Shown in pieces: positions 15,166 to 38,025 of a stretch of DNA of 38,025 nucleotides. The notes below the pieces were generated by a model. It was given only the letters and a program-made list of their open reading frames with translations, was not told where the DNA came from and did no database searches. The position numbers and the translations under genes were made by a program. Origin of the DNA: Prevotella sp. (GTDB lineage: Bacteria > Bacteroidota > Bacteroidia > Bacteroidales > Dysgonomonadaceae); NCBI GenBank assembly GCA_031285905.1, contig JAITVH010000107.1:1-38025 (forward strand). The letters are read 5' to 3'. Every line of letters starts with the position of its first letter. The stretch's first letter is position 1.

Positions 15166-15297
15166 AGCCCTCCAGCCTGAGCCCCTCCAACCTCCCCAGA
15201 GGGGAGGCTTCAAAGAGGGAATTTATTTTATTATTTATATGCAATTACTTTTTCTTGCGTTAGCCTAAAAGTCCCCCTCCGGGGGATTAGGGGGCTA
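15166..15297. repeat. REPIN-like inverted hairpin element, trpD/trpB2 junction
   Basis: On the plus strand a left module (GCCCCTCC then hairpin CCTCCCC-AG-AGGGGAGG, 15181-15207, with an extra AGCCCTCC copy at 15166) faces a right module. The right module is hairpin TCCCCCTCCGGGGGA followed by TTAGGGGGC, 15272-15295. About 62 bp of A/T-rich DNA separate them. The modules are in inverted orientation. The right end contributes the TAG stop codon of trpB2 (15295-15297). The same modules recur at 17236-17341, at 18743-18869 and at both ends of the insertion in leuS. Confidence 0.75.
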
Positions 15298-16671: not shown

Positions 16672-17295
16672 TTAATTGTTTAAAAAATTTCTTACGATTG
16701 TTTTTCCTTCAGGGGTTAATACTGATTCAGGATGGAATTGTACGCCATGTATATCATACTCTTTATGACGGAGTGCCATCATTTGCCCATTACTATCTAC
16801 AGCTGTCACCTCCAGACATTCAGGTAATCCTTTATTATCAACTATCCACGAATGATAACGTCCTACTTCCAGTTTATTATCCAGTCCGGCGAAAATATAA
16901 TCAGGGGCGATCTTTTCTATCTCTGTAGCCACTCCATGATATACATCTTGCAGATTGGTGAGATGAGCCCCGAAAGCTTCGCCGATAGCCTGATGTCCCA
17001 AACAAACACCGAAGATAGGTTTTTTGCCTGCATATTGTTTTATAAGGGGTAATAACAATCCTGCTTCTGATGGGATTCCAGGCCCCGGGGAAAGTATTAT
17101 TTTATCGTATTTAGAAATTTCATCTAAATTGATCTTATCATTCCTGTATACATCTATATCGTTATATCCCAGTTCTTTAACGAGATGAACAAGGTTGTAT
17201 GTAAATGAGTCGTAATTATCGAATATCAGTATACGGCCCCTCCTGGCCTCCCCTGAGGGGAGGAACTGGTTCTCAATATGTGTTTTATTTTTCAT
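16672..17295 (-). CDS. trpG: Anthranilate synthase glutamine amidotransferase subunit, with element-derived N-terminus
   Basis: A 207-residue class I glutamine amidotransferase that supplies ammonia to TrpE. The triad is present: Cys98 in GVCLGHQAIG, with His188 and Glu190 in VQFHPESVLTPEG. LSPGPGIPSEAG is also intact. Homologues begin close to ILIFDNYDSFTYN. Here about 21 extra residues precede it (MKNKTHIENQ FLPSGEARRG R), because the only usable ATG lies inside the hairpin element at 17236-17341 and residues 11-21 are translated from its palindrome. The extension has no recognisable domain and is probably tolerated as a flexible tail. The gene follows trpE by 43 bp. Confidence 0.95.
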   Translation of the reverse strand: MKNKTHIENQFLPSGEARRGRILIFDNYDSFTYNLVHLVKELGYNDIDVYRNDKINLDEISKYDKIILSPGPGIPSEAGLLLPLIKQYAGKKPIFGVCLGHQAIGEAFGAHLTNLQDVYHGVATEIEKIAPDYIFAGLDNKLEVGRYHSWIVDNKGLPECLEVTAVDSNGQMMALRHKEYDIHGVQFHPESVLTPEGKTIVRNFLNN

Positions 17296-17341
17296 TGTTA
17301 TTCTGTATTTAATTCCCCCTTTGGGGGATTTAGGGGGCCTA
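17236..17341. repeat. REPIN-like inverted hairpin element, trpG/trpE junction
   Basis: The left module is GCCCCTCCTGG plus hairpin CCTCCCC-TGA-GGGGAGG (17236-17263). The right module is hairpin TCCCCC-TTT-GGGGGA followed by TTTAGGGGGCC (17314-17338). The two are inverted around 50 bp that hold the trpG start codon. The TAG stop of trpE (17339-17341) abuts the right end, and the left module is translated as part of TrpG. The tails GGCCCC and GGGGGCC are complementary and could pair in the mRNA around the start site. Confidence 0.77.
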
Positions 17342-18799
17342 GTTTCTCAATTTTTCTGCGAATTTAATAGCTTTTGCCAAAGCGCCCAATTTATTTTTCA
17401 CTTCCATCACTTCTGTTTCAGGATTCGACTTGGAAACAATGCCACCCCCTGCCTGATAATAGAGTACATTGTTGCGGCTGAGGAAAGTACGGATAGTGAT
17501 TGCCTGGTTGAGGTCACCATTGAAACCTATATAACCGATACATCCACCATATACTCCGCGCATCTGGCTTTCGATGTCACGTATCAACTGCATAGCCCTC
17601 ACTTTTGGTGCGCCGGACAAAGTACCTGCCGGAAAAGTATCGGCAAAAACAGAAATACTGTTTGTCCCTTCGTCTACGATACCGCTCACGCGCGATACCA
17701 GATGAATAACATGGGAATAGAATTGTACGTTCTTGTAAAATTCCAGCTTCACATCGTGGCAATTGCGGCTGAGATCGTTGCGAGCAAGATCTACCAGCAT
17801 AACATGCTCGGCGTTTTCTTTTTCATCTTTCAGTAATTCTTCTGACAGCAGACGGTCTTTTTCATCATTGCCTGTACGGAAATAGGTACCTGCAATAGGA
17901 TCGATATATGCTTTGCCTTTGGTGATTTTACAATGTGTTTCGGGTGAAGAACCAAAGATTCGGAAAGAACCGAAGTCGAAGTAGAAGAGGTAAGGTGAAG
18001 GATTGATGGAACGAAGAGAGCGGTAGACTTTAAAATCGTCTCCGGCAAACTTTTGCGTAAAACAGCGGGAAAGAACGATTTGAAATACATCGCCGCGTTT
18101 ACAATGAGCTATTCCCCGGCGTATCATTTCCTTATGCTCTTCATCGGTTATCATAGACTGTTCCTGATCTATTGTTTCAAAATTGTATGAGGCGATATTG
18201 TTATTATTGAGAATGGCCTCTAGTTCAGGTGTTTTTTCTTCTGTTCCTTCAACTATATTTTCTACTATGGTCAGTTCATTTTTCAGGTGATTTATCACTA
18301 ATATAAAGCGATAGAGTATATAGTAAAATTCCGGAGCATCGGCATTTTTTAACTTACTGTTCTCAGGATCGACAGATTCGAAGTAGCGAATGGCATCATA
18401 AGATGTATATCCGAAAAAGCCGTTTATGTTCGTTTTGTTATCTCCCTGTACATCAAATTGTTTGATAAACTCATTAAATTTATCGGTCAGTTTCACATCT
18501 CCGGACAAAGTTTCTACTATCGATGTATTATCCGGATAAGTACAGGTAATGTTATTATCCTGAACCTTGAAACGAGCTATCGGATTAATGCCAATAAACG
18601 AATAACTGTTCTCGCCCCCATGATAATCCGAACTTTCCAATAATGCCGATTCAGGATAAATATCCCTTACCTTGAGGTAGATGCCTACGGGCGTTTGCAG
18701 GTCGGCAAGGAGGTCTTTGGTTTTGACGGTAATTTTATAGCCGCCCCTCCCATCCTCCCCATGAGGGAGGCTTATTATAGTATCGTTCATATCATCCAT
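17339..18799 (-). CDS. trpE: Anthranilate synthase component I, with element-derived N-terminus
   Basis: A 486-residue chorismate-utilising enzyme that makes anthranilate with TrpG. Residues 53-56 are LLES, the motif that binds tryptophan for feedback inhibition in TrpE, followed by NSYSFIGINP. The catalytic half has DPIAGTYFRTG, LVDLARNDLSRNC, and AGTLSGAPKVRAMQLI. The first about 20 residues (MDDMNDTIIS LPHGEDGRGG) precede the usual start region YKITVKTKDLLAD. They are encoded partly by the left hairpin of the element at 18743-18869. An alternative ATG four codons in is possible. Its stop lies at the edge of the next element. Confidence 0.96.
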   Translation of the reverse strand: MDDMNDTIISLPHGEDGRGGYKITVKTKDLLADLQTPVGIYLKVRDIYPESALLESSDYHGGENSYSFIGINPIARFKVQDNNITCTYPDNTSIVETLSGDVKLTDKFNEFIKQFDVQGDNKTNINGFFGYTSYDAIRYFESVDPENSKLKNADAPEFYYILYRFILVINHLKNELTIVENIVEGTEEKTPELEAILNNNNIASYNFETIDQEQSMITDEEHKEMIRRGIAHCKRGDVFQIVLSRCFTQKFAGDDFKVYRSLRSINPSPYLFYFDFGSFRIFGSSPETHCKITKGKAYIDPIAGTYFRTGNDEKDRLLSEELLKDEKENAEHVMLVDLARNDLSRNCHDVKLEFYKNVQFYSHVIHLVSRVSGIVDEGTNSISVFADTFPAGTLSGAPKVRAMQLIRDIESQMRGVYGGCIGYIGFNGDLNQAITIRTFLSRNNVLYYQAGGGIVSKSNPETEVMEVKNKLGALAKAIKFAEKLRN

Positions 18800-18869
18800 A
18801 TATTATTTAAGTTTTCAATATTTTAAATAAGGGTTTGCGTAAAAGTCCCCCTTGGGGAATTTAGGGGGC
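18743..18869. repeat. REPIN-like inverted hairpin element, trpE/trpB junction
   Basis: The left module is GCCCCTCCCAT plus hairpin CCTCCCC-AT-GAGGGAGG (18743-18770). The right module is TCCCC-CTT-GGGGA plus ATTTAGGGGGC (about 18844-18869). They are inverted around about 73 bp of A/T-rich DNA containing the trpE start codon. The TAA stop of trpB (18861-18863) is read from the right module, and the left module is translated as part of TrpE. The spacer has no similarity to the other copies, so only the ends are conserved. Confidence 0.77.
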
Positions 18870-35087: not shown

Positions 35088-38025
35088 TTACAATACCACA
35101 TTAATCATCTTTTTCGGCACAAAGACAATCTTCTTCGGAGTTTTACCATCCAGCCATTTTTGAGCCAACTCATGCTTAAGTACTGTTTCTTCAACCTCCT
35201 TTTGATCTATATCGGCAGGGAACTCTATATCGAAACGTACTTTTCCGTTGAATGCCACACCATATCGGAATGAGTCTTCAGCCAGATATTCTTCTTTGAA
35301 TTCAGGCCATTGAGCATCGCATACAGAGTTCGTATTACCTAAAGCATGCCACAGTTCTTCCGCCACAAAAGGGGCGAAAGGGGCAAGCACAACAATTAAG
35401 TCTTGGAAGATGGCTTTTTTGCTGCATTTGAGAGCACTCAGCTCATTTACACATATCATAGAAGCCGATATGGATGTATTGAAAGAGAATGCTTCTATAT
35501 CGGCTGATACTTTTTTGATCAGTTTATGCAATGCCTTCAATTCGGCTTTTGTCGGTTCTTCATTGGTAACGATAAATTCATCCCCTTTATAGAACAATCC
35601 CCACATCTTGCGCAAGAAGCGGAATACGCCGTCTATGCCGTTCATATCCCACGGTTTGGACTGTTCCAACGGGCCGAGGAACATTTCATACATACGCAAG
35701 GTATCTGCCCCATATTTTTCGGCTACATCGTCAGGGTTTACTACATTATGGTAACGTTTACCCATTTTTTCGATATTCCATCCGCAGATATATTTACCAT
35801 CTTCCAATATGAATTGAGCATCAGCATATTCAGGACGCCAGGCTTTAAACGCTTCTATGTCCAGAATATCATTGCTTACGATATTGACATCCACATGGAT
35901 TTCTGTTGTTTCATATTGGTCTTTCAGGTTGAAGGATACGAACTTATTCGTTCCGTTGATACGGTAAACAAGGCTGCTTCGTCCCTGTATCATTCCCTGG
36001 TTGATCAGTTTCTTGAACGGTTCGTCTTCGCATGAAACGCCTATGTCATACAGGAACTTATTCCAGAAACGGCTGTACACCAAGTGTCCTGTGGCGTGTT
36101 CCGTACCACCGATATATAAATCTACATTACGCCAGTATTCGTCTTTATCCTTCGATACCAGTTCGTCAGGATTATATGGATCCATATATTGCAGATAATA
36201 GGCCGAAGAACCGGCAAATCCCGGCATAGTGTTCAATTCCAGCGGGAAAATTGTCTTATGATCTATCAATGAATTGTCAACCACTACTTCTTTTTGCGTA
36301 TCCCATGCCCATTTAGTAGCGCGTCCCAATGGCGGTTCGCCTGTTTCGGTAGGTAAGTATTTGTCCACATCAGGCAATTCCAGAGGTAACTTGTCAATCG
36401 GCAACATATAAGGTATTTCACCCTTATAATAAACAGGGAACGGTTCACCCCAATAGCGTTGGCGTGAGAATATGGCATCACGCAAACGGTAATTTACCTT
36501 TATGCGTCCAAGGTCGTTTTCTTTAATATGCTGTCTCGCTTTTTCAATGGCGTCTTTTACTTCAAGTCCATTCAAAAAGCCTGAATTGATCATTATACCT
36601 TCTTTTGCATCGAAGCTTTCTTCCGACACATCAGCCCCTTCTATAAGAGGGATGATTGGCAGGTTGAAATGTTTGGCAAAAGCATGGTCGCGGCTGTCGT
36701 GCCCCGGTACGGCCATAATAGCTCCTGTTCCGTATCCGGCCAAAACGTAATCGGCTACCCAGATAGGCACTTCTTTTCCATTCAGCGGATTGATAGCATA
36801 AGAGCCTGTAAATACTCCTGTTACTTTCTTATCCATCTGGCGGTCGCGTTCGGTACGGCGCTTGGTGGCTTGAATGTATTTGTCCACTTCCAGCTGATGT
36901 TCGACAGTAGTTACTTTGGATACATATTCACTTTCAGGTGCCAGTACCATAAAAGTCACTCCAAAAATAGTATCGGGGCGGGTAGTGAAGACAATTACCT
37001 CCCCTAAATCCCCTCCAAAAGAGGGGACTTTGGCATCGCAAAATGATTTTATCTTAGCTATAACATTATCTGTGTCGGCAATAACTTCTTCATTCGAAAA
37101 GTGAAGAATAGTATATCCCAGTTCTTCTAATGCTTTGTCACGTTGTATATCATACTCCTGTTGATCCGGATTATTATGATATCCACCGTCCACTTCGATA
37201 ATCAGAGATCTCTCGAAGCAAATAAAATCTATAATAAATTTATCTATCAAATGCTGACGTCTAAATTTATATCCTATGTTTTTATTGCGAAGCATTTGCC
37301 ACAAAGCATTTTCTGCTTCTGTGGGATTTTTACGGTGTTCACGGGCATTGCTTATATTACTATTCCAATCCAGTTTGTTTGTTGTATGGTTGGGAGGTAA
37401 TTCATCCCCCCGCCTTTTGGAGGGGGCTAGGGGGAGGTGTATCTCAGCACCCTCACTGCGTCCTATCCAGTTGCGTTGGGTTTCTTTCAACGATTCAGTC
37501 CAATCTATCGTATCAAGGCTTTCCAACAGTCGTTGCGCATAAGCCGACGTCCTGATACTCCATTGGCGCATCAGGCGTTGCTCTACAGGATAACCGCCAC
37601 GCTCCGATAAGCCGCCGATTACTTCATCATTAGCCAATACAGTGCCTAAAGGTGCGCACCAGTTTACAGTGGTTTCGCTCAGATAGGCTATGCGGTAGTT
37701 TAATAATACTTCCTGTTTCTTTGTTTCTGAATACGCCTTCCACTCATCGGCAGTAAAATGTAGCTCTTCGCTGCAAGCAATATTCATCCCTTCCGTACCT
37801 ATTTGTTCGAATGCTTGTATCAGTTCTTCAATAGGGCGGGCTTGATTTTCATCGTTGCAATAATAGCTGTTAAACATTTTGATAAATGCCCATTGCGTCC
37901 ACTTGTAGTAACGAGGGTCGCATGTCTGTATCTCCCTGCTCCAGTCGAATGAGAAGCCGATCTTATCCAGTTGTTCACGGTAACGCTTGATGTTTTCAGC
38001 CGTAGTGATAGCCGGATGCTGCCCT
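35088..38025 (-). CDS. leuS: Leucyl-tRNA synthetase carrying an in-frame DUF559 nuclease-domain insertion (5' end off window)
   Basis: The frame is open to the right edge. The visible part starts at [20 protein letters not shown], so only about 70-75 residues including the HIGH motif are missing. Synthetase parts: [31 protein letters not shown] at the entry to the CP1 editing domain, the editing motif [30 protein letters not shown] with the editing Asp, [16 protein letters not shown], and [20 protein letters not shown], where the KMSKS loop reads KMGKR. Between GAEI and [10 protein letters not shown] lie 147 extra codons (36999-37439) encoding a DUF559 nuclease domain. Without them the protein would be a normal size (about 900 residues). 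The frame is intact throughout, so the enzyme is probably functional with a nuclease-like domain looped out of the editing domain. The nuclease part may be inert or active; this cannot be told. Confidence 0.95.
36997..37438 (-). mobile_element. 442-bp element with terminal inverted repeats and DUF559 (Vsr-like) nuclease domain, inserted in leuS
   Basis: The ends are 25-bp inverted repeats matching at 21 positions (36997-37021, starting ACCTCCCCTAAATCCCC, and 37414-37438 reversed, starting ACCTCCCCCTAGCCCCC). Each continues into a hairpin: CCCCTC/GAGGGG on the left, CCCCC/GGGGG on the right. Between them is a DUF559 domain of the PD-(D/E)XK endonuclease superfamily: [20 protein letters not shown], then [20 protein letters not shown], then [20 protein letters not shown]. 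The conserved Glu, the Asp of IIDF, and the Glu/Asp/His of IEVDGGYH are all present. The first in-frame Met in the element follows the first conserved Glu, so the domain is made only as part of LeuRS. No transposase, intein or intron motif is seen. Confidence 0.78.

Follow-up and report, generated by a model that had tools for sequence, protein, structure and literature searches.

The window analysed here, a 38,025-nucleotide contig (JAITVH010000107.1, assembly GCA_031285905.1) from a Dysgonomonas-group genome of the Bacteroidota, ends in the leucyl-tRNA synthetase (LeuRS) gene leuS, the editing domain of which is interrupted in frame by an element of 441 bp encoding a complete DUF559 nuclease domain (Table 1). 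Copies of this element stand in frame in many unrelated genes of the phylum, and it is probably a selfish, homing-type element that dispenses with splicing, spreads in frame between alleles of conserved Bacteroidota genes and stays in the protein.

The in-frame insert of the window leuS

The leuS reading frame is unbroken across the whole inserted block (38024 to 35088, the 5' end being cut by the contig end), and Pfam places DUF559 ahead of the editing domain, in agreement with the original prediction of a 147-codon block lying in frame directly before the editing motif. Within the protein the insert follows GAEI and immediately precedes FTTRPDT. Since the empty LeuRS genes of the genus carry sequence of the type GAEMKFKVKDSDIDFEIFTTR at this site, the resident segment has been replaced by the element and not merely split; by its place in the editing domain, the replaced stretch is the turn of a beta-hairpin. 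The missing LeuRS N-terminus (MEYNF..GLPAEQ) opens another contig, C129, and, judged by relatives, falls approximately 5 residues short of the window end. A second, uninterrupted leuS, which the same prediction had named as a sign that this copy is not the working one, was not seen in the assembly (88% complete) among the best 7 of 11 profile matches, the remaining 4 scoring below 60 bits. The block is also present in records titled Dysgonomonas sp. 521 and PF1-14, neither of which is flagged as a metagenome bin, and it is therefore no assembly fault of one bin.

The window insert has no in-frame ATG, GTG or TTG ahead of the conserved glutamate of the nuclease, so that its expression would come wholly from the host gene. 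It is highly improbable that the block is lost before protein maturation, whether ribosomes bypass it at the paired ends or some unknown type of splicing excises it; the two ends could pair in the mRNA, but the frame stays open across the ends and across linkers that vary in length, and selection acts on the domain at the protein level. Consistent with the earlier statement that intein and intron splicing motifs are absent, Pfam found no splicing domain in the window LeuRS, nor in 6 further hosts, of which L249 is truncated, and the sole Rfam match in 36900-37550 lies far below its gathering score, the block being open from end to end. The domain would thus be kept in the mature enzyme, which is presumably active and unharmed with it in place. 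As a separate observation, the KMSKS signature reads KMGKR (KMGKRYHN, near residue 753 of the window LeuRS) in the LeuRS of 9 of 21 Dysgonomonas genomes, whether or not the element is present.

Family, fold and conservation of the nuclease domain

The DUF559 match of the window LeuRS lies well above the Pfam cut-off (E=6e-34; 116.6 bits vs 20.6), and a profile of 56 copies finds the PDB entry 3hrl (E=3e-33) as well as the homing endonuclease catalytic domain 3r3p (E=3e-6). The fold predicted for the insert, with a predicted local distance difference test score (pLDDT) of 84 and a predicted template-modelling score (pTM) of 0.77, matches those of the homing endonuclease I-Bth0305I and of Vsr, a repair nuclease, which upholds the Vsr-like assignment originally made from motifs. 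This nuclease of the Vsr/EDxHD type is preceded by a short conserved leader, YxTAxxxxYxLLKE. The Vsr-type active-site residues, which we take to be catalytic, are retained in 100-102 of the 103 inserted copies described below, and key residues have been lost in place in some copies (L020, L066 and L068 in LeuRS, and L196 in RecG; loci are designated by L and genomes by G). The inserted domain is under purifying selection, as evidenced by a test of non-synonymous against synonymous divergence (dN/dS). Lower synonymous divergence of the inserts was considered as a sign of transfer and was dropped, the inserts having a lower G+C content at third codon positions. At E<=1e-5 the insert has 3 relatives in phage records, all of them weak. 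In the LeuRS of L062, L064 and L068, a second, divergent nuclease-like stretch follows a motif like SSFVFRVN; it reads KYAEHLLWE...IIEIKSQ in L064 and L068 and is perhaps an older captured copy.

Host genes and insertion sites

One other DUF559 copy is found in the window genome, in frame in valyl-tRNA synthetase (ValRS) directly before VVATTRPET, which is the matching place of the related editing domain, and a genome of the same family carries a copy in isoleucyl-tRNA synthetase (IleRS) before AWTTTPWT, with the ileS profile split around it. DUF559 was detected in at least 138 of 393 genomes of an order sample (E<=1e-8) and in at least 162 of 395 genomes of a phylum sample (E<=1e-15), part of these matches having been fetched and read. 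Among the best 80 of at least 529 related loci, the domain lies inside an open reading frame (ORF) of at least 215 codons in 68 and not in 12. The first 198 loci, matching a core profile built from five sequences, yielded 145 distinct copies after cores shorter than 86 residues had been dropped and identical cores merged, with 103 of them inside longer ORFs and 42 short or free; the same 215-codon threshold defined in-gene copies, and three labels were set by hand (L146 and L151, which are cut by contig ends, and L086, called free). A further 29 loci of the phylum sample stand outside the 145.

The 103 in-gene copies occupy the LeuRS editing turn (36) and a second LeuRS site (3), ValRS (11), the IleRS editing turn (3) and a second IleRS site (10), RecG (12) and other hosts (28). 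The LeuRS, ValRS, IleRS and RecG sites were named by the motif that follows, with seven such hosts confirmed by profile (L119, L133, L137, L138, L127, L131 and L195 among those named). The other hosts, identified by profile, comprise a WbcJ-type reductase, guanylate kinase, MazG, DegT/LegC aminotransferases, a ligase-associated helicase, IcmF, chorismate synthase, IspF, the CCA-adding enzyme, an AAA-domain protein, RecJ, UvrA, MetH and several restriction-modification proteins; the host of L192 was not identified by profile search. This amounts to about 22 host families in all, about 18 of them beyond LeuRS, ValRS, IleRS and RecG. In guanylate kinase and IspF the copies are N-terminal and not internal, and additional MetH and HsdR copies occur in the phylum sample, one MetH being confirmed by profile. 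The original prediction took the block for a mobile element, which fits the presence of this kind of element in many unrelated genes, where it is likewise in frame and its inverted ends mostly match. A contig titled Limnohabitans (Pseudomonadota; L157) carries a RecG insert that groups with Flavobacterium and is probably mis-binned.

The same narrow sites recur, namely the editing turn of LeuRS, ValRS and IleRS, the RecG site and IleRS site B. The 15 host columns that follow the element rank at conservation percentile 80 in LeuRS, 70 in ValRS, 95 in RecG and 100 at the second IleRS site; this test left out 4 of the 36 LeuRS rows (L020 and rows lacking the anchor motifs) and 1 of the 11 ValRS rows. 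L225 (ValRS of G018, where the motif did not match) and L117 (a LeuRS fragment starting after the site) were also dropped from the analysis. By eye, the element also lies just ahead of strands leading to such motifs as MTATPIPRT, GDVHDIGKN and the P-loop of guanylate kinase.

Inverted ends of the element and free-standing relatives

Between positions 36500 and 37900 of the window, the only inverted repeat of at least 12 nt reported is the pair 36997-37026/37409-37438, 30 nt long and 80% complementary. Its best-scoring local stretch comprises 25 bp with 21 matches, the very stretch named in the original prediction, and each arm forms its own hairpin when folded alone, as had also been proposed. 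Of 101 inserted copies, two with short flanks having been left out of the 103, 66 have inverted ends that match above the 99th percentile obtained with shuffled flanks. Clear ends share a form such as CCTCACCCC-nnn-CCCTCTCC-AAA-GGAGAGGG and are read in frame as peptides such as LSPALSKGEG and LPFGEDLGEV. The ends of a copy match each other better than they match those of other copies (medians 28 vs 18), the own-end match ranking best in 29 of 101 copies and in the top tenth in 55. These palindromic ends belong to the element. Searched with up to 3 mismatches, the 33-nt window end gave one match in the genome, with a pattern that misses even the element's other end; a looser palindrome pattern gave 0-3 matches per genome and was present in 9 of 25 Dysgonomonas genomes.

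The free-standing DUF559 genes of Bacteroidota share the domain and, in 31 of 42 copies by the same shuffling test, the matching inverted ends. They differ from the inserted copies in that an in-frame ATG of their own ahead of the core is commoner (40/42 vs 61/103) and in that 82 of their 84 flanks match none of the host proteins seen here; the two exceptions are a piece of 30 residues next to L164 and, at a distance of 0.6 kb from L189, an IcmF-like gene. The free copies are not inside broken versions of known hosts.

Occupied alleles, empty alleles and footprints

Among Dysgonomonas LeuRS, 6 of 21 contain the nuclease and 15 do not, so that the block is far from fixed at this place in relatives; its presence in all of them, without the inverted repeats, is what the original prediction had named as the mark of an ancient domain. 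The turn is of ordinary length in 14 of the 15 unoccupied genes, and one carries a short footprint. In ValRS, 5 of 23 Dysgonomonas rows (G020 being counted twice) are occupied and 18 are not. A LeuRS tree built without the insert requires 8 changes to account for its 9 occupied rows out of 32 (mean after shuffling 8.1), the 6 occupied Dysgonomonas being dispersed among the 15 others, and the ValRS tree requires 5 changes for its 5 occupied rows out of 23 (4.6 after shuffling). Patchy occupancy together with clean empty sites speaks for transfer. In the ValRS genes of G014 and G017, most 90-bp windows are 93-100% identical and one gene is occupied, the other empty, the element standing in place of the turn codons EGEDG.

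Four unoccupied genes carry a short in-frame scar, namely the LeuRS of G013 (FPLTPQKRGESVVV) and the ValRS of G024, G012 and G007, the last of which (APPTPQGGVEGA) resembles both ends joined. Two related observations were made in these synthetases. A second in-frame palindrome peptide (like APLSPPEGGNWG) is present in ValRS before DEDCLDTWF, e.g. in L001, L004 and L005, where it replaces the LPEGGF segment in part of Dysgonomonas, and the LeuRS of G032 (L029/L087) contains several further palindrome-encoded in-frame stretches besides the nuclease.

The patchy occupancy also bears on the possibility that the nuclease domain serves its host, for example in defence or as a regulatory switch on housekeeping enzymes, which would account for the purifying selection and the near-complete retention of the active site and which fits the restriction-modification and DNA-repair proteins among the hosts. 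We consider this unlikely, as chorismate synthase, IspF, IcmF and sugar-nucleotide enzymes are hosts too, the domain is dispensed with in most LeuRS and ValRS of the genus (15/21 and 18/23), and key residues have been lost in place in the four copies listed above.

In the homing model preferred here, the element would enter short loops just before conserved motifs, where an extra domain presumably does little harm, and no splicing would be needed because these loops tolerate a domain. The fused synthetase-nuclease, or another copy, would nick or cut an empty allele, following which repair would copy the element into the cut allele. Some copies would then decay, and the nuclease would be lost from them with a short in-frame footprint left behind.

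Grouping of the copies by site

On a tree of the 145 cores the site labels need 32 changes vs 87 when shuffled. The RecG copies form one group, the ValRS copies need two changes and the LeuRS-site copies 14; the LeuRS inserts of Dysgonomonas cluster with one another, and the two copies of the window genome, in LeuRS and in ValRS, fall in different groups. Judged from the core sequences, this pattern fits site-specific lineages that may have arisen via homing or via descent. An old domain, fused once to synthetases, inherited vertically and lost many times, would likewise have the Dysgonomonas LeuRS inserts grouping together, and a single origin at the LeuRS site is compatible with the tree. 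Such a history is nevertheless very unlikely, given that all but one of the unoccupied LeuRS of the genus have an ordinary turn with no scar, that the scatter of occupied genes on the host trees equals random and that about 22 host families are involved.

It has to be noted that several results weigh against homing. The conservation of the ValRS stretch after the element is unremarkable, and 35 of the 101 inserted copies, including most RecG copies, have no end match above control. The forks of the core tree are mostly weak (107 columns; 18/142 starred), a single origin of 35 LeuRS-site copies (L020 left out) is not rejected (p=0.40), and old vertical inheritance would likewise group the copies by site. 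In the G014/G017 pair identity drops to 77-83% at 90-270 bp upstream of the element, with the nearest 90 bp at 96%, which hints, from the alignment, at recombination with no clean conversion tract; no sampled donor matches the dip, the other pairs examined have no clear conversion tract, and no target-site duplication was seen by eye in this one close occupied/empty pair. The pairs in the dN/dS test share ancestry, with synonymous divergence near saturation. Finally, no extra DNA-binding domain was found by Pfam in the small insert; the host protein could supply this part.

Palindromes without a nuclease

Two palindromes of this kind stand alone in the window, without a nuclease; one is read in frame at the TrpG N-terminus, the other at that of TrpE (Table 1). 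The TrpG palindrome occurs in 6 of 21 Dysgonomonas genomes and is absent from the 15 in which TrpG starts with MKILIFDNYDS or a close variant. Seven hairpins of such make-up, of which one (35357-35380) may be due to chance, were counted in the 38-kb window, whereas 40 shuffles gave 1.4 on average and 4 at most. These solo palindromes leave room for another mobilising enzyme, either an unlinked transposase or hairpin replication slippage, with the nuclease as passenger or helper and the in-frame sites as survivors of selection; the excess of hairpins and the hairpin-forming inverted repeats at the ends of the element point the same way. This alternative is rather unlikely, in that the same narrow sites recur, the copies cluster by site and the active-site residues are almost fully retained.

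Table 1. Features of the window (coordinates on the 38,025-nucleotide stretch)
Feature	Coordinates	Strand	Basis
leuS (leucyl-tRNA synthetase), insert in frame	35088..38024	-	978-codon open frame; LeuRS editing and anticodon-binding domains
Inserted element, 147 codons (ends approximate to a few bases, the turn being replaced)	36999..37439	-	alignment to unoccupied LeuRS of the genus; predicted fold
DUF559 (PF04480) Vsr-like nuclease core	37038..37355	-	Pfam; profile vs PDB; fold match
Editing motif FTTRPDT, directly after the element	36969..36989	-	6/7 columns (346-349, 351, 352) invariant in 20 LeuRS proteins
Terminal inverted repeat, end nearest leuS start, read as protein	37409..37438		inverted-repeat search and end matching
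Terminal inverted repeat, end nearest editing motif, read as protein	36997..37026		inverted-repeat search and end matching
Hairpin inside first inverted repeat	37407..37426		hairpin scan; arm folded alone
Hairpin inside second inverted repeat	37009..37027		hairpin scan; arm folded alone
Solo palindrome, related, in frame at TrpG N-terminus	17247..17263		TrpG by profile, matching from residue 21-22
Solo palindrome, similar, in frame at TrpE N-terminus (SLPHGEDGRGGY)	18752..18772		TrpE-type by profile
C/G-rich hairpins of similar kind, intergenic, near trpE and trpG	15273-15294, 17310-17333, 18847-18868		hairpin scan

Relation to known systems and implications

The nearest relatives in kind are the Rickettsia palindromic elements, and the nearest in enzyme the homing endonucleases. 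The former, described from Rickettsia (Ogata 2000, 2002), are approximately 150 bp long, encode a short conserved peptide, and are found in frame in unrelated genes and kept in the product (PMC10969869). Both are selfish palindromic DNA in frame in unrelated protein genes, and the present element differs in its length of 441 bp, its nuclease, the recurrence of fixed sites and its occurrence in Bacteroidota. Known homing endonucleases are described as residing in introns, in inteins or in free-standing genes (PMC3943268). With the EDxHD homing endonucleases (I-Bth0305I) and Vsr the inserted domain shares the fold and the Vsr-type key residues, and with the former also the location at conserved positions of essential genes, the site that is empty in close relatives and the patchy distribution; it differs from them in having no splicing element and no separate DNA-binding arm that could be found. 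Inteins are similarly in frame beside conserved motifs of essential enzymes and carry a nuclease, and differ by their splicing domain, of which Pfam found none in the hosts searched here. In the open-access literature searched, none of the papers listed describes nuclease domains residing unspliced in such genes, and none links DUF559 with a tRNA synthetase; DUF559 itself occurs in 14 papers, none of which, judging by title, concerns such insertions.

It is possible, if not quite probable, that these copies represent a new class of mobile element, comprising nuclease genes that move by homing and live permanently unspliced in essential enzymes, along with a nuclease-less branch (the TrpG and TrpE palindromes and the ValRS and LeuRS footprints) that shapes loops and N-termini across Bacteroidota. 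To our knowledge, the accepted view is that a homing nuclease can hide in a conserved gene only within an intron or intein. The present nuclease seems to manage by settling in loops that can accommodate a complete additional domain; it does so repeatedly in the three related synthetases, and RecG, RecJ, UvrA and other core enzymes are further hosts. What an essential enzyme pays for harbouring a selfish domain thereby becomes open to direct testing, as does the origin of new protein domains in selfish DNA, and the element may explain odd DUF559 fusions and N-terminal extensions in the gene annotation of Bacteroidota.
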